Below, one piece after another: positions 41,557 through 53,543 of a DNA stretch of 64,000 bases (positions within the stretch are counted from its first letter, which is position 1; each line of letters opens with the position of its first letter). The translations under genes were made by a program, and so were the position numbers. The notes beneath the pieces were generated by a model. The model was given only the letters and a program-made list of their open reading frames with translations, was not told the origin of the DNA and made no database searches. The stretch comes from Bacteroidota bacterium. Its GTDB lineage: Bacteria; Bacteroidota; Bacteroidia; Bacteroidales; JAADJA01. Location of the stretch: NCBI GenBank assembly GCA_020444515.1, contig JAHLKX010000004.1, positions 434,001 to 498,000 on the forward strand, written 5' to 3'.

Positions 41557-42144
41557 TTACTCATAAAAATGCATTTCCCGCATATACTTCCAAACCTTCT
41601 CAGGCAGCATGTAGCGCATGTCTTTCCCTTCGGCGATTGACTTGCGGATGAAGGTGCTTGAGATTTCCATCAGCGGTGTTCTGAAAACCTTTACAGAAGG
41701 ATGTTTTTCGTATTTGCTTCCTTTGAAACCGGGTCGGGCATATACATACATTTTATATAACTCGAGAATCCGTTGTGGATTTTTCCATTTATCGAAGCTA
41801 GGTAATTGATCGGAACCGGCCAGTAATACAAAACTATGATCCGGGTATTTTTCCTCGAGGTAAGTGAGCGTATCGATGGTGTAGGAAGGTTGGGGCATGC
41901 CGAATTCGATGTCGGTCACCCAAAAACGGGGATCCTCTTCAATGGCCTCCCGCACCAATGCCAGCCGGTGATGGTCGGCCAACAGACTTTTTTTTTCCTT
42001 GAACGGATTTTGCGGGCTCACCACAAACCAAACTTTATCCAGATCGGTGTATTCAACAAACCAGTTGGCAATCACCATGTGCCCGATGTGGATGGGATTG
42101 AAGGAACCGAAAAATAAGCCGATGTTTTTGTTGTCGAGATTCAT
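41557..42144 (-). CDS. nadD: Nicotinate-nucleotide adenylyltransferase
   Basis: 195 residues, normal for NadD. GLFFGSFNPIHIGHMVIANW at the N-terminus has the nucleotidyl-transferase HxGH motif. WFVVSPQNPFKEKKSLL and the C-terminal ISSTFIRKSIAEGKDMRYML are the other family signatures. It makes nicotinate adenine dinucleotide in NAD biosynthesis. It lies 17 bp after the PIN toxin gene on the same strand, so it may receive readthrough from the toxin-antitoxin promoter. Confidence 0.93.
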   Translation of the reverse strand: MNLDNKNIGLFFGSFNPIHIGHMVIANWFVEYTDLDKVWFVVSPQNPFKEKKSLLADHHRLALVREAIEEDPRFWVTDIEFGMPQPSYTIDTLTYLEEKYPDHSFVLLAGSDQLPSFDKWKNPQRILELYKMYVYARPGFKGSKYEKHPSVKVFRTPLMEISSTFIRKSIAEGKDMRYMLPEKVWKYMREMHFYE

Positions 42145-42161: not shown

Positions 42162-42548
42162 TTATTCCCAAAAAGCAAAGGTACAATTTGACAGTATTGT
42201 TTGATCTTTAGTTAACAATTTTACATCCCGAATTTTTGCATGAGCCGAAATGATGCGATCAAAAGGATCACGGGTCCAATCGTGGTTTAAAGCTTCCTCT
42301 ACTATTTCAGCAAAGTCATCATTGGCTTCTTTTAATCCAATCTCCTGCTTTAATGCATTTACGATTTTACCAGGTTTTTCCGAAATTTTTCCAATTTCAT
42401 ACAAATATTGCAGTTCCAGTTTTACAACCGGTGAAAAATATAGATTGGATTTTCTGATCTCACGAAGTGCTAAATTACTGAACAATTTCAATTTGCCGGC
42501 ATAGAGCCATATAAGCACATGTGTATCGAGGAATATTAACTTTTCCAT
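42162..42548 (-). CDS. PIN-domain toxin (VapC-like)
   Basis: About 128 residues from ATG 42548 (an upstream ATG at 42560 is possible). PIN RNase acidic residues are all present: Asp in FLDTHVLIWLY, Glu in VVKLELQYLY, Asp in DPFDRIISAHA and Asp in LLTKDQTI. The fold matches type II toxins that cut tRNA or rRNA. It overlaps the antitoxin gene by 13 bp, the usual coupling. Confidence 0.85.
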   Translation of the reverse strand: MEKLIFLDTHVLIWLYAGKLKLFSNLALREIRKSNLYFSPVVKLELQYLYEIGKISEKPGKIVNALKQEIGLKEANDDFAEIVEEALNHDWTRDPFDRIISAHAKIRDVKLLTKDQTILSNCTFAFWE

Positions 42549-42757
42549 TCGGATGACCAATCGATATGAATATACTCAGCCGGATCTTCATTCATGATAT
42601 TTCGTTCAGGCATTTTATCCAACTTATCATTTTCAGGGGGTGGAATGATCTTTAAAATCTTCCCCTTCCGTTTTATTTCCAGCGGAACCCCTGTTTCCAG
42701 CACCTGGTCGAGCAGGCGGTATAAGTTTTGACGTAAAGCAGACGTTGAAATGATCAT
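42536..42757 (-). CDS. Phd/YefM-type antitoxin
   Basis: About 73 residues from the ATG at 42757: MIISTSALRQNLYRLLDQV followed by ETGVPLEIKRKGKILKIIPP, the dimeric DNA-binding fold of Phd/YefM antitoxins. The C-terminus (YIHIDWSSEWK) would wrap the toxin. The frame is open to 42802, but the promoter (42774-42803) lies there, so 42757 is the start. It precedes and overlaps the PIN toxin gene. Confidence 0.82.
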   Translation of the reverse strand: MIISTSALRQNLYRLLDQVLETGVPLEIKRKGKILKIIPPPENDKLDKMPERNIMNEDPAEYIHIDWSSEWKS

Positions 42758-42938: not shown

Positions 42939-45377
42939 ATGAAGAAATACCTGATAGCTATTTTTCTTATCCTATTCAATTTCACAGGTTATAAATCAAT
43001 TGCTCAATGGACGACAATCTACGAGAATAGTGAATACTACTTTATGGGAATCTATTTTAAAAATGATACAACCGGATTCATGAGTGCATTTGATCTGGAG
43101 CAGTATTCTTCTCCTACATTAATTTTAAGAACAGATGATGCGGGTGAAACCTGGACAGAGATATTTACGGTTCCGGGAGGAAATGCAGGACCTTATACCT
43201 TTTATTTTGTGAACGACAGCATTGGTTATGGTGGCGGTCAGGATGGTGTATTCTATAAAACGGTGGATGGTGGTTACAACTGGTTTTTTGCAGGTAGTTT
43301 ACTGGGCACCTGGGATGTATACAGGTGCAGTTTTTTTGATGAAAACACAGGAATCGCTATCAAGCAACGAACCACTGATGGAGGTGTATCCTGGAGCCAG
43401 ATGGATATTTATACCAATGAAGTATACATCATTAATGATTCTTCAGGACTTGCAGCCTCTCCTGATGGTATTTTTTACACCTCTGATTTAGGCGAAACCT
43501 GGATACAAACCAATACACAAAGTCAAGATGACTTTTCTTCCATTTCGCTGATATCTGCTGAAATAGGATACGCCGGGAGTAAAACAGGCCTAATTTTCAA
43601 AACCAATGACGGTGGCAAGAATTGGAATTTAGTAGATTCTGTTCCTGAAGTTATCGACCGCATGATTTTTATCGATGAAAACAGGGGATACCTTCATACC
43701 GGAAGATACAATAATTTGCGGCTAATGAGGACCGAAGATGGAGGCCATAACTGGGATTATATTCTTTTTGGAAATAATTTTGCCAATGATTTTGCACTGG
43801 CTGGTGACAGCAACATCGTGGTTCCTATTGAAAATGGCTTCCTTTATAGAACAACCAATGGTGGTGGAGCTGCCCTGTTTCCTGAGCGTCCAAAAATAGA
43901 ATGGTATAAAACTTTACAGGGCAGTGACCTTGATCCCTTTGTTATTCAAAGTTCTTGTATCGATACTAATTCCAATCTATATATTTCCGGTAAATTCAGA
44001 GATACTTTAAAAATAGAAGATCAGGATCCCAACGTCTCTGCATTTCCTGAAATGATCAGCAGTGCATTAATCAAAATTACAGCCTCGGGTGAAATTGAGT
44101 ATCTGAAAATTTTTGAAGATTTTGAAAATGATATGTGGATATACACTTCAGCTTGTGATGAAAACAACAATCTTTATATTTGGATATCTGGAGAAAATGA
44201 ACAGGAAAATCAGTTACAAAAATACACTGAAGCTGGTGAATTGTTATGGTCGGTCCCAATCATAGCATACGATTGGAATCAGGGAAGAAAAATCCTTATC
44301 TCCTCGGAAAATGAGATTTGTCTTTCAGGAAATTTTGAAAATACTTTGCAAATAGCAGACGAATCCCTGACGACTGACTATAATGCTACATTTTTCGCAA
44401 AGTTGGATCAGGATGGAAATCTGCTCAGTCTTGATAAATTAATTGATTATGGGTCTTATCCTTCGAACAATATATTCAATATTGAATTAAATGATAATGG
44501 CTATCTGGTCTTGATGGCAAACGCATATGGTATTTATTACAATGGTGATTCCCTGGCTTTCGGGCCCATACACATAGTTACTTTTGATGAGGAATTTAAT
44601 TTACTCTGGAATTCAACTGGTTATAGCCAGGGTAGATTGTATGATATCCAGTTTATGGAAAATGAAAATCTGGTCATTTACGGAAAAACAGATAATGATC
44701 CCGATACCCTGCATAGCCTTCACGAAATGGATGTTTATGGTAATCTTGTCAATTATATTAAAATCAAGGGCCTCCAGTCTGGAGATGGCGGAAATATTTA
44801 TACCAATAGTTCTGGAATAATGGTTACCGGCAGATACTTCGATTTTGTTATTATTGGAAATGATTCTGTATTTGGATTTAACCCTTTAGAAACTTTTATT
44901 TTTAATCTTGATCAAAACTTTAATAATTCAGGTAAAGTACATATTGCCAGCGGCAGTTATTACAGTAGACTGATATTAAATAGTCAGAGTACTTTTTTCA
45001 CCGCTTTAAACCAGCCCGGAAACAATGTACTATTTGCTAATGACACCATTCCAGCCTCAGATGCAAAGCGCGAAATCATTGCAAAGTTCTCCAATCCAAA
45101 TACTTCAATTAATTTCTATGAATCTCATGAAAATCATGTTTTAATCTACCCCAACCCCACCAGCGGTATAATCAACTTTCAATTTCCGACAACTCAACAA
45201 AACCAACCCATACAAATCCAATGCTTCAGCAATCAGGGTAAACTGGTAAAAACAAAAACTTTTACAAATGCTGATACACACGTCTCACTCAACCTAAGTG
45301 ATTTAAGTCCGGGCATATATTATTTGCAGGTTAGATCAGATTCGAAAGTTTATATTGAGAAAATCATAATTCAATAA
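42939..45377 (+). CDS. Secreted YCF48/BNR-like repeat protein with T9SS tail
   Basis: 812 residues. Signal peptide 1-22 (ends YKSIAQ). Residues about 25-310 contain five or so units with the YCF48/BNR signature: LRTDDAGETW, YKTVDGGYNWFFAG, YTSDLGETWIQT, FKTNDGGKNWNLVD, MRTEDGGHNWDYI. This predicts a beta-propeller. A second propeller-like half (about 340-700) follows. The last about 80 residues are a T9SS type A domain (IYPNPTSGIINFQFP; LSPGIYYLQVRSD). Predicted surface-exposed or released; role unknown. Transcribed away from the toxin-antitoxin operon. Confidence 0.82.
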   Translation: MKKYLIAIFLILFNFTGYKSIAQWTTIYENSEYYFMGIYFKNDTTGFMSAFDLEQYSSPTLILRTDDAGETWTEIFTVPGGNAGPYTFYFVNDSIGYGGGQDGVFYKTVDGGYNWFFAGSLLGTWDVYRCSFFDENTGIAIKQRTTDGGVSWSQMDIYTNEVYIINDSSGLAASPDGIFYTSDLGETWIQTNTQSQDDFSSISLISAEIGYAGSKTGLIFKTNDGGKNWNLVDSVPEVIDRMIFIDENRGYLHTGRYNNLRLMRTEDGGHNWDYILFGNNFANDFALAGDSNIVVPIENGFLYRTTNGGGAALFPERPKIEWYKTLQGSDLDPFVIQSSCIDTNSNLYISGKFRDTLKIEDQDPNVSAFPEMISSALIKITASGEIEYLKIFEDFENDMWIYTSACDENNNLYIWISGENEQENQLQKYTEAGELLWSVPIIAYDWNQGRKILISSENEICLSGNFENTLQIADESLTTDYNATFFAKLDQDGNLLSLDKLIDYGSYPSNNIFNIELNDNGYLVLMANAYGIYYNGDSLAFGPIHIVTFDEEFNLLWNSTGYSQGRLYDIQFMENENLVIYGKTDNDPDTLHSLHEMDVYGNLVNYIKIKGLQSGDGGNIYTNSSGIMVTGRYFDFVIIGNDSVFGFNPLETFIFNLDQNFNNSGKVHIASGSYYSRLILNSQSTFFTALNQPGNNVLFANDTIPASDAKREIIAKFSNPNTSINFYESHENHVLIYPNPTSGIINFQFPTTQQNQPIQIQCFSNQGKLVKTKTFTNADTHVSLNLSDLSPGIYYLQVRSDSKVYIEKIIIQ

Positions 45378-45444: not shown

Positions 45445-48400
45445 TCATTGCACAATGACCTTCTGATAGAAAATCTCTTTCGTTTGCCCATCAACATGAA
45501 CTTTCAAAACATATACGCCGGGATTCAGATCTGAAACATCCAGTTTCGTATTAAAAGTGCCTTTAAGTATAGTCCCAAAATTAATTTCTGATACTACCTC
45601 ACCCGTCAATTGATGCATTGTAAATGCAACTTTTGCCTCTGATGTAAGCTTCAGCGTAATACTGGTGGAACCGGAAGCGGGATTGGGTGCCACCTTGAGA
45701 AAGTTTTGTATTCCAGCAGCATTTTCGTTCGATCCGGTCATCACATCGGTGATATTTCCAACATAGGTCTCCAATGCCGCAAAGGTTTCACTGCCATCGA
45801 TGTATTCTGTTTGGACCGATTCATACAGTTGTCCGTTGCTATATACTTTAATGGTGAAATCATTTCCAATGGTAAAGCCATCCATTTCAGATGTTGCCGG
45901 GTCATCCATGGAAGTTACGGTGATGCTCATGGCATTTGAGTTACCATCATACACAGAGGCACCCACGCAAACTTCGCCATCAAAAATACCCACTTCATCA
46001 CCGGTGTTCAGCATGGTATTGGTCATCAGGATGAAATGCATCGGCATGTAAGGATTATTTTGGTACACAGGTTCAAAATATACCGGGTCATTCACAGCAA
46101 TCACAGACTTGCTGTTACTGCCGCCCTGCCCCTCCCCGATCATCAAGGAGCTCTCATCGAGTACTTTGATATAATATCCTTTACCATTTTGCAGGTTGCC
46201 GATGGTATTGATCCACTGTCCGTTGGGTTCCGGGAAAGGAATATACTGAATGAGTCCGCCTGCATCGTCCAGCACTTTATAAAGCACTTCGCCATCAATG
46301 AGCGGTTGAACGGTTTCCAAAGCATCCTGGGGATCATCAGCCGGATATCCCATAATATTCCACCCCGATTGCAACGGAACGGTCACAGGCATTGCTAGCG
46401 GCATTCCCTGCATGGATACATCTGCAGTTTCGCTCACCTTTACATAATAACCTTCCATAATGCTCATCTCACCGATGGAGTTCACCCATTTCCCTTCCGG
46501 ATCAGGCAGTGGAAGATAAACAAGGCTTCCACCATCCTGGTCGATCACCTTCAGCAGGTTCTCATCTTCAATCAGAGGTTGAAACACACTCATCATGTTG
46601 GTGTTTAGCGGCACCACTGAAGATGAAACCAGGTTCCAGCCCGGTTGAAATACCATCTGTTGGGTGGCCATGACTTCAGCGCTCAACGCAACAATAGCGG
46701 TTCCCAATGGCGTAAATACTTCATCAAATCCGGGTGTCGGGAATTCCGTAATAACTTCTGAAATTTCGCCCAGTTCAGCAGTCCAGAGTTTGAAGATCAA
46801 TTCATTGCCGGGTGTAAATCCGTTGGCCACATCTGGATTCGAACCATCATCCATTGAGACAATGATCTCAAGAATATTCGTATTATTTATCGGTTGCGTC
46901 ACCAAACCTGCACCCACACATATTTCCTGCCCGGTATTCGGATCAATATCGAAAACGCCCACCTCATCGCCAAGTTGCATGTCCAGGCTGTCAATTTGAG
47001 CCGACACCACAAAAATGGTCATTGGATTGAAAGGGGTTTCCCATACCGGATCGAAATTGCTCAAACTCTGATCAATCACAGTAAGATTAACGGGTAATTC
47101 AAAAAGTGAATTGATTGTATCATTGGAGCTAACTAAAATACTGGCTGTATAATCAGCAACGGGCAAATTGGATGCATCCAAAGTGACCTGCACAACTGCA
47201 TTGTCACCGGGAGCGATGCTCCCTGATAGAGGATCAAGTGCGATCCAGGGATTACTGGCACCAATTATAACGGTATAATCTTCTGTTTCACCAAAATTGG
47301 TATTCTGGCAGGGATCGGTATTGGAATACAACCAGGAACCCATCACACGCATTCGCGTTTCGCCATTGATGGCAGATACCGGAATTTCCAGTTGTGCAGT
47401 ATACGTTTGGCCTGGAATCTCACATTGCAGATCACTCACAACCCGTTCATCTTCTGTAAATTCTTCATCCTGGTTCAGATCGATCCATACATTCACAAAG
47501 TTGTTGCTGTAGGAGGAAGAAATCGTCACATCATAAACGGTTCCTGTGGCAAGGCCGGTGGACAGATTGGTAAAATCACCAAAACCGTTGGGAGAGCATC
47601 CTGAGTTGACATTGGATATTTCAGCCAGTTCAAAACTATTGATGCCATCCCCGAAATTACAATTGGAGGTGGGAATGCAATAATCATTGATTGATTCAGG
47701 ATCTGAAGGATCATATAAAAGTTGCTGCCATCCTTCGCCAAATCGCTCTGCGGCAAGTTTTTCAAACTGTTTTTTTGTAACCGTTGATATGCCTTTATTT
47801 TGTGATTTATTTTGATTGGTGTAAGCAGTATTGAGACTATAGTTGAGGTTAATGTTCCCTGTATTGTGGATCACAAGTTCAGTCAAAACCGATTCACCGG
47901 TTTCAACAACCTGATCTATGGATACCGGATTGACAGCTAAGTCAGGATTTCCGATTGCCACTTCCAGCGGATCCGTCAGTTGCGATTCACCTTCATCATA
48001 AAAGGCTGAAACCTGGTACTGATATATTCCAAAGTCAAGGTCGCTGTCTGAAAATGTTGTTGTTGTAACAGATCCCAACAGGTTGCCATCACGATAGACA
48101 TTGAAACCGGTATAGCTTCCTGTAAAGGGTTCCTGCCATGACAGTTCCACATTATTACCATTAACCGTTGCCTGCAGGTTTGACGGCGGCAGTAGCAGCG
48201 TATTTTCAGAGGGAATGGTAAATGCCGAGATGTGTACATTATTCTGAAGCGGAGCGGTCATCACAGCCTCTCCTGTTTGGGTATTAATAATGTAAAGACC
48301 CGATTCTCCACTGTAATTCTGTCCGGCGAAATAAAGTGTGTTGGTTGTTTTATCAAACGCGATATCCTGTATGATAATAAAATCGCCGCCAAGCGGCCCT

Positions 48401-50016
48401 ATGTAGTTCACATCAGCTGTTGCTTTATCAATGGAAAACAGGTTATCATCCGTGAGGTCAACCCCATACAAATTGCCATTTCCATCAAACGCAATGCTGG
48501 TAATACCATTTAATTCCGGATCCTCAAAACTACCAATGAGGCTTAATTCTCCTGTTGCAATGTTTATTTCAAATAACTCTGCATATGAATTTCCGTAAAA
48601 GTTCGTTCCGTCAAAAGCAATCCCAACCAAAGGGGAATCTTCAAAAAGCAGGGTGGTTTCGGTTGAGATCGGATCAAAGGAATAAACTTCACCTTCGTAA
48701 GCAACAGCATAGATCATTCCGTCGACCCATGTTGCTCCAATCAATGGAAGGTCCAGGCTGGAAATGCTTAACTGGTTAATGGTTCCGGGATCCACCAGGT
48801 CGAAGATAACCCACCCTTCCTGCAACCCGGAAGAAGGGCTGTAATTGACATATCCGTAAGCCGTCATGGGTGATACGACGGCTGTTGAGGCCGATTTGCA
48901 ATCATTGGCCGGATTTTCATCTCCGGTCAACTGTGTGCAAACTTCTGCTGAATAAGCACCCACGGACGCATCCCAGGGATCAAAACTGATATCGAGACTC
49001 TCCCCCGGCGCCAGTTCTATCACATCAACAGTGGAAACAAAATCCCCAATGGTGAGGGTAACCGGGAAACTCTGGCTCTCAAATCCATAGTTCACAACAG
49101 TGGCTTCCGCAGCATAGGGCCCGATGGCAATTGAAGCCGGCAATTCGAAGTTTAAAACCCCCACATTGGCAGCGAGCGGTTCACTCAGAATATTGACTGT
49201 ATAATCTTCAATTTCTCCGAAACTTGCGTTGGTACAAGGATCAGCAGACGACTGGATCCAGGTCACCTTCGCCCGCATCCGCGTGTTTCCTGACAGTGCA
49301 TCGGGAGGCAGATTGAAATCGACGTTGTAGGTTTCTTCAGCAACAGCCATCTCAAAATCGGTGATGAGCCGCTCATCATCCTGAAACACATAATCCTGGT
49401 TTAAATCAATGAATAGGCTGAATTTCTGGCTTCCGAAACCGGATTTCACCATTACTGTATGTGAAGTGGTTACGTCCAGATCGGTAGAAAGACTGGTAAA
49501 ATCACCATAACCATCAGGGCTGCAGCCAGATTCCAGGTTTTGGATATCACCCAGTGCAAAATCGGCTAATCCATCTCCAAACGCACAATCTGCCGAAGGA
49601 ATGCAATAGGCATCCAGCAAATGGGTCACGTCCTTTGTAAAACAGTTATTGTCAGGAAATACATCCCCGGCGAGCCAGGAACAAACTTCAATTTCGTATG
49701 TCTGTCCGGGATTGCTCAAATCAACCGGCATGAAAAAAGTATAATTATAGGTTTGGTTGGGTTGTAAAGGTTCGAGAATCGTTTCTTCAGAGAGTAGTTC
49801 TCCATCCAGTGTCAATGTCAGGGAATAATTGGCCTGTGTTTGGGTTCCTGCATTAAAAACCTCCGCAACCACAATTTCAAAATCACCCAGTCCGCCAGCC
49901 GACTCAGGACTGATGATGGCCGTTACGGCGAGATCCTTTTCATAAGGTTGACTAAAAATTGTTCCAGCATAAGTAATTGACAAAAAAAGGAACAGGATGG
50001 TAGACGTATATTTCAT
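45445..50016 (-). CDS. Giant multidomain T9SS secreted protein (GEVED, FN3, repeats)
   Basis: 1523 residues. Signal peptide 1-22 (ends GTIFSQ). Domains in order: CARDB-like (about 25-130); first GEVED domain (about 140-275, FSLFIDLNQDYVFQDDERL); a second CARDB-like stretch; a beta-propeller-like segment (about 400-620); fibronectin type III (about 630-710); second GEVED domain (about 780-905, VNVWIDLNQDEEFTEDERV); then a tandem pair of about 80-residue modules starting FQPGWNLVSSSVVPL and LQSGWNIMGYPADDP; and a T9SS domain (KVAPNPASGSTSITLKL; LNPGVYVLKVHVDGQ). GEVED and CARDB modules are common in secreted adhesins and enzymes. No catalytic domain seen; an adhesive or binding role is inference. 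Confidence 0.85.
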   Translation of the reverse strand: MKYTSTILFLFLSITYAGTIFSQPYEKDLAVTAIISPESAGGLGDFEIVVAEVFNAGTQTQANYSLTLTLDGELLSEETILEPLQPNQTYNYTFFMPVDLSNPGQTYEIEVCSWLAGDVFPDNNCFTKDVTHLLDAYCIPSADCAFGDGLADFALGDIQNLESGCSPDGYGDFTSLSTDLDVTTSHTVMVKSGFGSQKFSLFIDLNQDYVFQDDERLITDFEMAVAEETYNVDFNLPPDALSGNTRMRAKVTWIQSSADPCTNASFGEIEDYTVNILSEPLAANVGVLNFELPASIAIGPYAAEATVVNYGFESQSFPVTLTIGDFVSTVDVIELAPGESLDISFDPWDASVGAYSAEVCTQLTGDENPANDCKSASTAVVSPMTAYGYVNYSPSSGLQEGWVIFDLVDPGTINQLSISSLDLPLIGATWVDGMIYAVAYEGEVYSFDPISTETTLLFEDSPLVGIAFDGTNFYGNSYAELFEINIATGELSLIGSFEDPELNGITSIAFDGNGNLYGVDLTDDNLFSIDKATADVNYIGPLGGDFIIIQDIAFDKTTNTLYFAGQNYSGESGLYIINTQTGEAVMTAPLQNNVHISAFTIPSENTLLLPPSNLQATVNGNNVELSWQEPFTGSYTGFNVYRDGNLLGSVTTTTFSDSDLDFGIYQYQVSAFYDEGESQLTDPLEVAIGNPDLAVNPVSIDQVVETGESVLTELVIHNTGNINLNYSLNTAYTNQNKSQNKGISTVTKKQFEKLAAERFGEGWQQLLYDPSDPESINDYCIPTSNCNFGDGINSFELAEISNVNSGCSPNGFGDFTNLSTGLATGTVYDVTISSSYSNNFVNVWIDLNQDEEFTEDERVVSDLQCEIPGQTYTAQLEIPVSAINGETRMRVMGSWLYSNTDPCQNTNFGETEDYTVIIGASNPWIALDPLSGSIAPGDNAVVQVTLDASNLPVADYTASILVSSNDTINSLFELPVNLTVIDQSLSNFDPVWETPFNPMTIFVVSAQIDSLDMQLGDEVGVFDIDPNTGQEICVGAGLVTQPINNTNILEIIVSMDDGSNPDVANGFTPGNELIFKLWTAELGEISEVITEFPTPGFDEVFTPLGTAIVALSAEVMATQQMVFQPGWNLVSSSVVPLNTNMMSVFQPLIEDENLLKVIDQDGGSLVYLPLPDPEGKWVNSIGEMSIMEGYYVKVSETADVSMQGMPLAMPVTVPLQSGWNIMGYPADDPQDALETVQPLIDGEVLYKVLDDAGGLIQYIPFPEPNGQWINTIGNLQNGKGYYIKVLDESSLMIGEGQGGSNSKSVIAVNDPVYFEPVYQNNPYMPMHFILMTNTMLNTGDEVGIFDGEVCVGASVYDGNSNAMSITVTSMDDPATSEMDGFTIGNDFTIKVYSNGQLYESVQTEYIDGSETFAALETYVGNITDVMTGSNENAAGIQNFLKVAPNPASGSTSITLKLTSEAKVAFTMHQLTGEVVSEINFGTILKGTFNTKLDVSDLNPGVYVLKVHVDGQTKEIFYQKVIVQ

Positions 50017-50106: not shown

Positions 50107-50143
50107 CGAAATAGAAAACCATCACCCCAGTGGATGATGGTTT
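50107..50143 (-). terminator. Terminator after the nitrosative-stress operon
   Basis: AAACCATCA (50116-50124) and TGATGGTTT (50135-50143) form a 9-bp stem. On the minus strand it continues into TTTTCTATTT. It lies 41 bp after the end of the nrfA remnant. Confidence 0.65.
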
Positions 50144-50183
50144 AAATAATTCATTCAAACATTTGATGTAAATCTATAATTAT

Positions 50184-50575
50184 CTAATTATAATTGATTC
50201 CCCATCCTTCCTCACGCTTTTTAGCCTCCTCCAGCCATTTCGGGACCAGGTTCTCTTTGAATTCCTGTTTTTCCTCTTTCAGTTTTTCCATTGGCAACCC
50301 TATGAATTCCTGTGCTTTTGCTTTGGTGGAAATATCAGGATATGGAACCTCATCATTGAATCCTAATTCAGCCAGCAGCCGTGCCAACTTGATCCTGCCT
50401 TCCTGGGCAATGGTAATGCCGGTGCTCACTGTTCTTCCGATTTCCACAGGTGAATGGAAAGAACCGCCATGGGCCGCAGCCGCATAATCCCAGCGCCACT
50501 GTGCATGCCGTATGTCTGTCAAAATCTCTTTCATTTGTTCTTCAGATGCTCCTAAATCCCGGGAATTTTTGACAT
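50184..50575 (-). pseudogene. nrfA: nrfA remnant: C-terminal quarter of ammonia-forming nitrite reductase
   Basis: Matches the end of NrfA: DLGASEEQMKEI and then DIRHAQWRWDYAAAAHGG, DISTKAKAQEFIGLPMEKLK and a typical terminus (VPKWLEEAKKREEG). An ATG at 50534 would give only 116 residues; homology continues upstream to about 50570 without a start. All heme-binding CXXCH motifs and the catalytic lysine heme are in the missing part, so no nitrite reduction is possible. The upstream sequence is instead the start of a DUF438 gene in another reading frame. Reads as a deletion scar. It is the last gene of a minus-strand operon, followed by a hairpin. Confidence 0.8.
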
Positions 50576-50689
50576 CAGGCGTATCAATTGCTCGCGAACC
50601 ATATCAGGTTCCTCACCTTCATGGATCTGCACAATCATGTGCTTTAGCAGTTCTTTGCGTTTTTCTGAATTATTGATGAGTTCGCTCAT
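50552..50689 (-). pseudogene. DUF438 gene fragment (first 45 codons)
   Basis: ATG at 50689, then MSELINNSEKRKELLKHMIV and QIHEGEEPDMVREQLIRLMS, which matches the N-terminus of DUF438 proteins (about 400 residues, with hemerythrin and PAS domains in other species). It ends at an in-frame TAG (50552) within 20 bases of the junction to nrfA sequence; the nrfA frame is shifted relative to it. Everything after the first helices is lost. The parent protein family often accompanies NO-response genes. Confidence 0.65.
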
Positions 50690-50766: not shown

Positions 50767-51072
50767 TTACTTCCACTTATCTGTCATATGCAAAAAAGCC
50801 AGCCGGGGCTGATAAACAATCATCCTTGGGCCTGCATACCTCATCACCTCGCGAATTTGTTCTTTCCGATCTTTTTTATAACAATGAACCGGACATTTGG
50901 AACAAACCGGCTTTTCTTCACCAAATTTGCAGCGGTCGAGGCGGGTATTGCTGTATGCGATCAACAAGTTGCAATCCTCACACAATCCATCCACAGGATG
51001 ATGATGCGCTTTGCAATAGAGAGCAATCATGCTGTTCACCGTTTTTTTCTCCCGTTCGATCCGTTTCATCAT
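50767..51072 (-). CDS. ygbA: Nitrous-oxide-stimulated promoter (YgbA) family protein
   Basis: About 101 residues; starts at GTG 51075, ATG 51072 or ATG 51069 are adjacent, and I use 51072. IEREKKTVNSMIALYCKAHH at the N-terminus, followed by cysteine-rich segments (LCEDCNLL; RLDRCKFGEEKPVCSKCPVHCYK), matches the YgbA_NO family, named from genes induced by nitrogen oxides. Six or more Cys suggest metal or Fe-S binding. The stop of the amidotransferase gene is directly upstream (no gap), so it is translationally coupled. Confidence 0.82.
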   Translation of the reverse strand: MMKRIEREKKTVNSMIALYCKAHHHPVDGLCEDCNLLIAYSNTRLDRCKFGEEKPVCSKCPVHCYKKDRKEQIREVMRYAGPRMIVYQPRLAFLHMTDKWK

Positions 51073-51075
51073 CAC

Positions 51076-51768
51076 TTATCCTTCAAAAAATGTGTCCAGA
51101 AATTGAAACAGGATTTTCCGGTTAGATGCATGATATTTGTTCATGTGAAGCATTTGACCGGGTTTTTGCACAAATGGGAGATCCTCACCGAAAAGGGTTT
51201 CATTTTGCTCGATCAAAGCAACCACTCCATCCGGATTCATCTCCATATGAAACTGGAAGGCAGCCACATTTTCCGAAATAAATGCCTGGTTAGAAGTGGC
51301 CTCAGATGAAATAAAACAGTTTATCCCTTTCGGCAAACTGAAAGTATCGCCATGCCAATGGAATGTCTTAAAGTGTTTCGGGAATATACCTTTGTATTTC
51401 TTGGGGAGGTTTTTTTCGTTGATATCCACATCAAACCAACCCACTTCTTCATGTTCATTTTTAAAAACCTGAGCATTCATGGCATCGGCGATAAATTGCG
51501 AACCGAGACAAATGCCAAGTACCTTTGTCCCTTCCTGAACGGACTGTTTGATAAAATCCCGCTCATCAGGCAACCAGGAATATTCTTCATCATCATAAAT
51601 GTTCATCGGACCACCCATCACGATGAGGTTTTCAGTTTCCCTTATATCTGGTATTCCGGGATGATCATAAAAATTAACCTCCTCAAAAGAATGGCCATAT
51701 TCCTTGATCCAATCCAGGATATACCCCGGCGACTCGTAGGGCACATGCTGAAAAATGGTAAATTTCAT
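51076..51768 (-). CDS. Class I glutamine amidotransferase-like protein
   Basis: 230 residues, one GATase domain. The nucleophile Cys87 lies in VLGICLGSQFIADA, and the His174/Glu176 pair in FQFHMEM complete the triad. VMGGPMNIYDD near 50 is the oxyanion-region motif. It resembles the stand-alone amidotransferases related to GMP synthase. The acceptor partner is not encoded nearby. The gene lies between cupin and ygbA genes with gaps of 2 and 0 bp, so it is part of the same operon. Confidence 0.85.
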   Translation of the reverse strand: MKFTIFQHVPYESPGYILDWIKEYGHSFEEVNFYDHPGIPDIRETENLIVMGGPMNIYDDEEYSWLPDERDFIKQSVQEGTKVLGICLGSQFIADAMNAQVFKNEHEEVGWFDVDINEKNLPKKYKGIFPKHFKTFHWHGDTFSLPKGINCFISSEATSNQAFISENVAAFQFHMEMNPDGVVALIEQNETLFGEDLPFVQKPGQMLHMNKYHASNRKILFQFLDTFFEG

Positions 51769-51770
51769 TT

Positions 51771-52103
51771 TTATTCACTTTTGATCATGGTAAGTAACAT
51801 TTTGAACTTTTCAACGGCAAAAACAGCATGGGGTACATTGGCCGGCATGATGATCGATTCACCTTCAAGCAAATGATAAGATTTCCCTTGAATAATAATT
51901 TCACCTTCACCATCGAGAACTTGCACCAGCGCGTCAAACGGAGCTGAATGCTCGCTTAATTGCTGTCCCTTGTCGAAAGCAAACAGGGATACATTCCCCT
52001 TTTCTTTTTGCAATACCCGTTTACTGACAATGCCTTCAGCCGAATAATCTACTTTCTCTTTAAACTTCATGATGGTCGAATGACCGAATTCTTTTGATTC
52101 CAT
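51771..52103 (-). CDS. Small cupin-domain protein
   Basis: 110 residues, a single cupin barrel: FDKGQQLSEHSAPFDALVQV (motif 1 with His) and LLEGESIIMPANVPHAVFAV (motif 2 with the second His). The first motif has fewer His than metal-dependent dioxygenases, so a ligand-binding or regulatory role is possible. In this kind of operon such cupins are thought to respond to the same stress; the function is not known. It is separated from the ferredoxin gene by a GC-rich repeat. Confidence 0.75.
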   Translation of the reverse strand: MESKEFGHSTIMKFKEKVDYSAEGIVSKRVLQKEKGNVSLFAFDKGQQLSEHSAPFDALVQVLDGEGEIIIQGKSYHLLEGESIIMPANVPHAVFAVEKFKMLLTMIKSE

Positions 52104-52143
52104 ATTATTTCGTTTTTAAGAACTATTAACTTCAAACTTCGAA

Positions 52144-52204
52144 CCTGCCTTCCCTGCCTATCGGCTTTGCTCCGCTGAAGCTTTGCGAAAGCGATGCAGG
52201 CAGG
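52144..52204. repeat. GC-rich palindromic intergenic repeat (REP-like)
   Basis: A nested imperfect palindrome far richer in G+C than its surroundings. CCTGCCT (52144-52150) pairs with AGGCAGG (52198-52204); CCTGC..ATCG (52153-52163) with CGAT-GCAGG (192-200); GCTTTGC (52164-52170) with GCGAAAGC (52185-52192). It resembles the dispersed CCTGCC/GGCAGG intergenic repeats common in Bacteroidota. It sits inside an operon and splits the ferredoxin and cupin genes; no second copy was found in the window. Confidence 0.6.
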
Positions 52205-52226
52205 CGCCAGTCAGGCTTCAAACTAA

Positions 52227-53126
52227 TTATATCCATTGCTCGCTTAAAACCTCACCTTCAACACCCACTATAATTTCTTTCAACGGTATTTTGCGATCCG
52301 CTTGCTGCGTTGCCATTTGAGCCATCTGAACCAGGCCACCACAACAGGGAACCTGCATGCGCAAAATCGTCAGCGTATTGATGTTAGAATCACTGATCAT
52401 TGATGTGAGTTTGGTAACATAACTATCCAGATTCGAATCGAGTTTCGGGCAGGCGATGGCGATACTGTTTCCCTTAAGGTATTTCCGGTGAAAATCGCCC
52501 ATGGCATAGGCGATGCAATCGGCGGTTAATACCACATCTGCATTTTGAAAATAGCTGGCTTGTGGATTCAGCAGATGCAACTGCACCGGCCATTGTCGCA
52601 GTTCCGATTTCACTTCGATATTTTGTGTTTTCCCGGATGCTTCTACTTCATCCATATCAATGTTGAACTCACGGGCCTGCGATCCGGGACAACCTGCAAA
52701 TCCTGAATGGTTGGGCGAGCCGAACAAATCATGTACAAGGTTTTTTACATTCATGTCTTCCTTCTTAAATTCTGACAAATCCATCGGATGATTGATCTGT
52801 TCCAGGTATCCAAGGGATTCATTCAGAAAAACGGTTTCACCATGATCTTTTAAGTGCCGAAGGTGCGCCAATAGGGTATTCTCTCCTTTCGGTATCATCA
52901 TTTCCATCACTTTGATCTCATCATAGGGTTCGGCTTCCCGTTCCTCAATGGTTAAGGCACCTTCCGGACAATGGCCAATGCAAGCTCCCAGCCCATCACA
53001 AAATAAGTCGCTGACCAGACGGGCTTTTTCATCAACGATCTGAAGGGCGCCTTCATGGCATTCGGGCACACAGGCACCACAGCCGTTGCATTTTTCTTCG
53101 TCGATAACTATAATGTCTCTTTTCAT
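52227..53126 (-). CDS. 4Fe-4S ferredoxin-type redox protein of the nitrosative-stress operon
   Basis: 299 residues. Two [4Fe-4S] motifs near the N-terminus: CNGCGACVPEC (residues 13-23) and CDGLGACIGHC (43-53, with one irregular spacing). The C-terminal 150 residues have conserved cysteines and a CO-dehydrogenase/hydroxylamine-reductase-like chain (GFAGCPGSQ, ADCIAYAMGDFHRKYL, ACPKLDSN, VPCCGGLVQM). Relatives usually sit beside hydroxylamine reductase (hcp) genes, but hcp is absent here. It likely passes electrons to NO or hydroxylamine detoxification enzymes. It starts 3 bp after the Rrf2 regulator. Confidence 0.82.
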   Translation of the reverse strand: MKRDIIVIDEEKCNGCGACVPECHEGALQIVDEKARLVSDLFCDGLGACIGHCPEGALTIEEREAEPYDEIKVMEMMIPKGENTLLAHLRHLKDHGETVFLNESLGYLEQINHPMDLSEFKKEDMNVKNLVHDLFGSPNHSGFAGCPGSQAREFNIDMDEVEASGKTQNIEVKSELRQWPVQLHLLNPQASYFQNADVVLTADCIAYAMGDFHRKYLKGNSIAIACPKLDSNLDSYVTKLTSMISDSNINTLTILRMQVPCCGGLVQMAQMATQQADRKIPLKEIIVGVEGEVLSEQWI

Positions 53127-53129
53127 AGC

Positions 53130-53543
53130 CTATATAACTTTGTTCAATTTAAAGTCATTAAATGTCTTATTTTCAAGATAATTTTTGAAATCCCCTGCAA
53201 ATTTGTGAGGATGATTCCCGAAAATGCAGGTATCAAAATAACAATCCCCGCAAGTAATTGCACATTCGAAGCTGACCAGTTCACCTTCAATCAACTCATA
53301 GATTTCAAGCAGTGAAATTGAAGTGGGATTTTTTTTCATAGTAAAACCACCGTTGGGGCCTCGCAATGAATCGAGGTACTTATGTTTGACCAGGATATGC
53401 AACACCTTGGCAAGATGATTTCTTGAAAAATGGGTTACTTCTGCGATCTTGTTGGCACTCAGACTCCGTTCTGTATTAGCAATGAGGGCCAGGCTGTGGA
53501 TCGCAATGGTGCTGGCTTCCGATATGTTGATGAAGGTGCTCAA
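53130..53543 (-). CDS. Rrf2-family Fe-S regulator (NsrR/IscR-like)
   Basis: 137 residues. The winged helix-turn-helix reads ANKIAEVTHFSRNHLAKVLH and YLDSLRGPNGGFTMKKNP. Cys94, Cys98, Cys101 and Cys106 form a cluster-binding loop (FECAITCGDCYFDTC), as in NsrR/Rrf2 sensors of NO. The frame begins with TTG (53543); no in-frame ATG is available before the fold, so TTG is the start. It is the first gene of the operon and is preceded by its own promoter and an inverted repeat, so it probably represses itself and the downstream genes until NO damages the cluster (inference). Confidence 0.85.
   Translation of the reverse strand: MSTFINISEASTIAIHSLALIANTERSLSANKIAEVTHFSRNHLAKVLHILVKHKYLDSLRGPNGGFTMKKNPTSISLLEIYELIEGELVSFECAITCGDCYFDTCIFGNHPHKFAGDFKNYLENKTFNDFKLNKVI

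Follow-up and report, generated by a model that had tools for sequence, protein, structure and literature searches.

We report here what is very probably the scar of one deletion, or of a few nested ones, that extended from codon 43 of a DUF438 gene to the tail of the nitrite reductase gene nrfA and took the intervening nitrogen-oxide genes with it. The scar occupies positions 50184..50689 on the minus strand of the window, the 64,000-nucleotide stretch analysed here (bases 434001-498000 of the 554-kb contig C11), where the start of the DUF438 gene adjoins the end of nrfA and the reading frames of the two halves differ by 2. The genome, G000, comprises 5.0 Mb in 16 contigs. Both remnants stand in the order and orientation found in relatives, and the parts missing between them are absent from the rest of the assembly. 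Deletion scars left by gene loss are known in bacterial genomes, and no difference of principle separates them from the present case, in which two genes from one cluster, each truncated, meet, no repeat is visible and the genes between them are not found. The scar is an ordinary, apparently recent trace of gene loss. The accessible portions of the literature on DUF438, on nrfA loss and pseudogenes, and on ygbA or hemerythrin/HcpR contained no description of it.

Results

The junction and its two remnants

A preliminary description of this DNA gave a range of 50550-50590 for the junction, which can now be placed between bases 50561 and 50560, give or take at most about 3 bases. The 45 codons of DUF438-like sequence described there hold as the length of the open reading frame (50552-50689, minus strand); homology covers the first 43, and the last 2 lie past the junction, ahead of a stop codon at 50552-50554. 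Both ends were compared in seven relatives. On the DUF438 side, the bases before TA are CCT in five relatives, CCC in one and CCA in one, and on the nrfA side, the bases before GGGA are GCCT in four, GCAT in two and GCGT in one. Apart from CC or CCT, the two sides have no sequence in common in these relatives, and a repeat-mediated deletion was rejected on this ground.

Table 1. Features at and around the scar (window positions)
Feature	Position	Strand	Basis
Rrf2-family regulator gene	53130..53543	-	Pfam E 3.7e-23; same place in L072, L075, L081
4Fe-4S protein gene	52227..53126	-	Pfam; same place in L072, L075, L081
Cupin gene	51771..52103	-	Pfam; same place in L072, L075, L081
Class-I glutamine amidotransferase gene	51076..51768	-	Pfam; same place in L072, L075, L081
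YgbA_NO gene, upstream neighbour of DUF438	50767..51075	-	Pfam E 1.5e-40; same place in L072, L075, L081
DUF438-hemerythrin-PAS gene, 5' remnant	50561..50689	-	43 codons, 95% identical (aa) to the starts of two intact homologues
Deletion junction, ...AAAATTCCC|GGGATTTAGG...	50560..50561	-	Alignments and junction context in relatives; 0-3 bp possible microhomology (CC or CCT)
nrfA 3' remnant	50184..50560	-	Last 124 codons, two bases of the preceding codon and stop; Cytochrom_C552, NCBIfam, alignment with 33 other NrfA tails
Terminator-like hairpin behind nrfA remnant	50117..50142	-	Fold z -3.57 for 50108-50186
812-aa T9SS protein gene, flank marker	42939..45377	+	83% identity over 812 aa in L056, L055
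PIN gene, far flank marker	42162-42560	-	With NadD, behind the NosZ region of G005
NadD-like gene, far flank marker	41557-42144	-	Follows nrfA in G006

The DUF438 remnant resembles the starts of the intact proteins of four same-genus genomes, G006 and G011 (95% identity each), G005 (86%) and G014 (77%). With the intact G006 protein as query, the remnant is found at E 2.8e-18; against the Pfam DUF438 profile it aligns to positions 1-29 of 67, where its 20.3 bits (E 0.00054) fall short of the 25-bit cutoff. The G006 protein has 415 aa and combines DUF438, Hemerythrin and PAS_10. The remnant resembles DUF438-hemerythrin-PAS proteins (PF04282, PF01814, PF13596) over its 43 codons and lacks about 90% of the gene, including, by the domain positions in G006, the larger part of DUF438 and the entire hemerythrin and PAS domains. 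It does not qualify as a member of this group.

The nrfA-like frame begins directly after the DUF438 part, 24 bases upstream of the first ATG (DLGASEEQ), and the open frame from that ATG (50184-50534, minus strand) ends in the nrfA stop codon at 50184-50186. It matches positions 331-436 of 438 of Cytochrom_C552 (E 1.2e-27) and 374-481 of 487 of the NCBIfam nitrite reductase model NF008339 (E 2.9e-41, below the whole-protein cutoff of that model), with 86% identity over 116 aa to the NrfA of G006. This bears out the preliminary view that the last quarter of NrfA follows in another frame. All heme motifs are gone, as had also been stated: the scar contains no CXXCH/K motif, and in the intact G006 NrfA (497 residues) the five motifs lie at residues 141-333, whereas the remnant corresponds to the protein from residue 374 onward. 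In contrast to intact NrfA (PF02335), which is a full-length Cytochrom_C552 protein with heme motifs, the remnant lacks the N-terminal three quarters, and no NrfH partner was found in the genome. From these features, the remnant is not expected to be an enzyme.

No decay of the nrfA remnant was measurable. Among 34 aligned sequences, 28 were used (distinct rows with fewer than 12 gaps). Across the 27 sequences other than the remnant, 18 columns are invariant, and the remnant departs from none of them; when each of these 27 is treated in the same way, 7 depart from 1 of 19 such columns and the remaining 20 from none. Relative to G006, the remnant shows 48 synonymous and 19 amino-acid-changing codons, and G006 differs from five other same-genus sequences by 25-39 amino-acid-changing codons; the changes in the remnant are like those seen when intact genes of the genus are compared. 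Because the remnant is free of measurable decay, the loss looks recent relative to the split from G006 and the divergence of the genus, or else the remnant may still be constrained. The sole hint of constraint is the intact frame, which a recent loss explains equally well.

Layout of the cluster in relatives

G014 carries DUF438 and nrfA on a single contig and strand, with 15,648 bases (about 15.6 kb) between the positions equivalent to the ends of the scar. This interval holds homologues of DUF1858, NarG and NrfH; its other frames, judged by their starts, we take to be cytochrome c, NarH, NarJ, NarI, two NarK and a porin. None of the nrfA-side neighbours in the window is present in the 9.6 kb behind the nrfA of G014. 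In G006, the assembly is interrupted within nrfH, between contigs C245 and C50, and the second of these carries most of the remaining nrfH followed by nrfA and NadD; we infer the linkage across this break, and the equivalent interval amounts to 9,757 bases plus any gap (about 9.8 kb). The nrfA contig of G011 ends at nrfH. Five named loci from uncultured Bacteroidales or Bacteroidetes (L080, L095, L102, L127 and L130) carry DUF438, DUF1858, NrfH and NrfA in this order on one strand, within intervals of 3,589 to 7,298 bases; in L102 and L130 only the second part of DUF1858 matches, and PepSY is present in three of the five. Across the seven relatives measured, the interval thus spans 3.6-15.6 kb, and in several relatives nrfH directly precedes nrfA. 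The order and orientation of the two halves of the scar are therefore those of G014 on one contig, of G006 by way of the contig ends in nrfH, and of 5 of the 80 named loci.

The linkage is seen in some relatives only, which speaks against its generality. NrfA falls within the stretch in 7 of the 80 named loci, five of them in the order of the scar; in L086 it lies on the opposite strand and in L128 upstream. Among 16 same-genus relatives, many of them incomplete genomes, DNA of the DUF438 start occurs in six (G005, G006, G008, G009, G011, G014) and full-length nrfA also in six (G003, G006, G009 twice, G011, G013, G014), weak NrfA matches in other genomes not being counted. The DUF438 count was taken from the DNA search of the gene start; the search by family covered 10 of the 16 relatives, with four positive and G000 itself below threshold. 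G003 and G013 have nrfA and no match to the DUF438 start. The nrfA copy of G009 on contig C315 is preceded by nrfH, a porin frame and nar genes, with no DUF438 within the contig.

A search with 661 bases of DNA across the junction returned no match spanning it in 40 related genomes (including the 16 of the same genus): nrfA-side matches run past the junction by no more than 17 bases, and DUF438-side matches stop at or before it. The named loci are 80 of 278 DUF438 relatives, among which records from the window's own genome may be absent, and at least six of them (L072-L076, L081) are not independent of the same-genus relatives. In 77 of the 80, DUF438 homology extends to residue 409 or beyond of 415, and in the other three it runs to the contig end. 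The junction itself was present in 4 of 152 loci compared, all four from G000, and in none of the 148 loci outside this genome.

Flanking genes

The outer flanks of the window match both ends of the cluster in relatives. The run YgbA-amidotransferase-cupin-4Fe-4S-Rrf2 (Table 1) is also the run upstream of DUF438 in G006 and G005; G014 has one extra gene in between. On the nrfA side, a hairpin sequence similar to that behind the remnant also follows the intact nrfA of G011 and one of G009's two copies (L056, L055), and a homologue of the 812-aa gene adjoins intact nrfA in G011 and on one G009 contig. The gene at 41557-42144, which we take to be NadD, is called CTP_transf_like by Pfam. A 1523-aa surface-protein gene (45445-50016, minus strand) separates the nrfA remnant from the 812-aa gene; its product carries a T9SS sorting domain and, in one stretch, a sub-cutoff match to a thermolysin-like NCBIfam model. 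Because no homologue of this gene was found in the 13 relative stretches compared, the nrfA-side flank has changed in other ways too.

In G014 (L050:7234-8436) and G011 (L057:5496-6713), an extra gene of about 400 aa lies directly before the cupin gene, and by eye its start resembles a DUF438 protein; neither the window nor G006 has a DUF438-like frame of about 400 aa before cupin. A palindrome-like sequence at 52136-52216, in the gap that separates the cupin gene from the 4Fe-4S gene, was considered as a repeat element and rejected, as it has one copy in the genome and a fold that is not unusual.

Genes missing from the genome

Searches of the 5.0 Mb of G000 found NrfA only as the tail in the scar, and the intact DUF438 query found only the 43-codon start. 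The NrfH search, first run without controls, was repeated with relatives as positive controls: it was negative in G000 and positive in four of five relatives, the fifth (G005) giving a weak 29% match. DUF1858 was likewise not found in G000, while the same query was positive in five of five relatives. NosZ was not found in G000, and NarG gave weak 26-31% matches only; G006 likewise lacks NosZ and NarG. When 8.7 kb around DUF438 of G006 was compared with the DNA of G000, it matched at the DUF438 start and in five pieces of 29-35 bases at three places; the absence from G000 of PepSY, the porin and other genes of the G006 cluster rests on this DNA search. The intervening genes are thus missing from the rest of an assembly that is 94.7% complete, and could still sit in unassembled DNA.

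In G006, a gene between DUF438 and nrfH (L052:4142-4840) weakly matches Y1_Tnp, an IS200-like transposase family (20.1 bits, below the 23-bit cutoff), and short pieces of 29-35 bases near it recur in G000 on contigs C4, C10 and C13.

Discussion

The preliminary description proposed a deletion that had removed the rest of the DUF438 gene, nrfH if there was one, and most of nrfA. The same-strand order in relatives and the parts missing from G000 support this proposal: the rest of DUF438 and nrfH are absent and nrfA persists only as its tail, as a deletion predicts. The deletion must also include DUF1858, because relatives carry it behind DUF438 and G000 lacks it. In the course of events that we consider most plausible, one end would have fallen inside DUF438 codon 43 and the other in a Trp codon of nrfA just before the 124-codon tail, probably with the loss of further genes. 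The lost piece would have measured 3.6-15.6 kb by the seven relatives, or about 9.8 kb by the layout of G006, its exact size and content being estimates from these relatives. The most likely route would be illegitimate joining or slippage during replication, with 0-3 bp of homology between the ends, and the shared CC or CCT could have acted as microhomology. Such an event would leave a truncated DUF438 frame of 45 codons, an nrfA tail that has lost the N-terminal part and the heme sites, and, upstream, the Rrf2, 4Fe-4S, cupin, amidotransferase and YgbA genes.

It had been noted earlier that an assembly join would look the same, that is, that places several kb apart, or two strains, might have been joined and the DNA between them dropped. 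The contigs of two relatives with both genes break nearby, at nrfH in G006 and G011, which would fit trouble with assembly in this region. However, the junction lies inside a 554-kb contig of a 16-contig assembly, no repeat longer than about 3 bp is present there to mislead an assembler, and the missing genes are on no other contig. Since these genes are absent from the assembly and the join has no repeat, the doubt is weakened, and we consider an artefact of assembly or binning improbable and much less likely than a deletion. Still less credible, to a degree that we regard it as extremely unlikely, is a functional short fusion or a pair of kept peptides, in which the 45-aa DUF438 start, a 116-aa NrfA tail, or both would be made and selected. 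The tail frame runs uninterrupted through 124 codons, with no change at the 18 invariant columns, and its first ATG follows the stop of the DUF438 frame by 17 bases, so that re-initiation is conceivable. Yet the tail has no heme site and its frame no start before 50534, a recent loss accounts for the open frame equally well, and no relative examined (40 genomes, 80 named loci, 148 outside loci) has the arrangement. The check for a conserved fused gene that had been suggested earlier therefore found none, and a functional fused gene was rejected.

Given a deletion, the cell should lack NrfA-type, ammonia-forming nitrite reduction as well as the hemerythrin protein encoded by the DUF438 gene, as far as gene content can predict this. 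The scar looks like an early stage in the loss of nitrite ammonification, at which the remaining coding sequence is still undecayed. In a profile search it scores as an nrfA match of 109.2 bits, above the curated cutoff of 24.1 bits, and therefore surveys of the presence and absence of nitrite ammonifiers that accept partial matches would score this genome wrongly. A putative link to nitrosative stress comes from family names, namely the YgbA_NO and Rrf2 matches here and hemerythrin in the intact DUF438 gene. In enterobacteria, ygbA is under NsrR, and its level in a Salmonella nsrR mutant was raised 31.8-fold (PMC2884951). Predicted HcpR regulons often include hemerythrin-like genes, and those in Desulfuromonas and Geobacter species include nrfHA (PMC1274295).

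A more speculative proposal, which we hold to be possible if rather doubtful, is that the slot between DUF438/DUF1858 and PIN/NadD is an exchangeable site for nitrogen-oxide respiration modules in the genus, emptied in the window by a recent excision. The slot holds nrfHA in G006 and a NosZ region in G005, where no nrfA match was found and NosZ lies between DUF1858 and the same PIN and NadD as in the window (L058:1566-7889); by their starts and neighbours, frames near this NosZ were read as nos genes. G014, with NarG plus NrfHA, fits the slot on its DUF438 side only, the NadD-side flank not being seen. Modules at this site seem to come and go. If the proposal is true, the loss of a module here would be a repeated and perhaps niche-driven event, not one accident. 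The locus L077 (MAG Zod_Metabat.457) has an intact nrfH (193 aa) and no nrfA match in its remaining 6 kb, and may represent a separate loss of nrfA at this site. Behind this nrfH (L077:4013-5238) come a 135-aa frame and then frames that by eye resemble parts of formate dehydrogenase.
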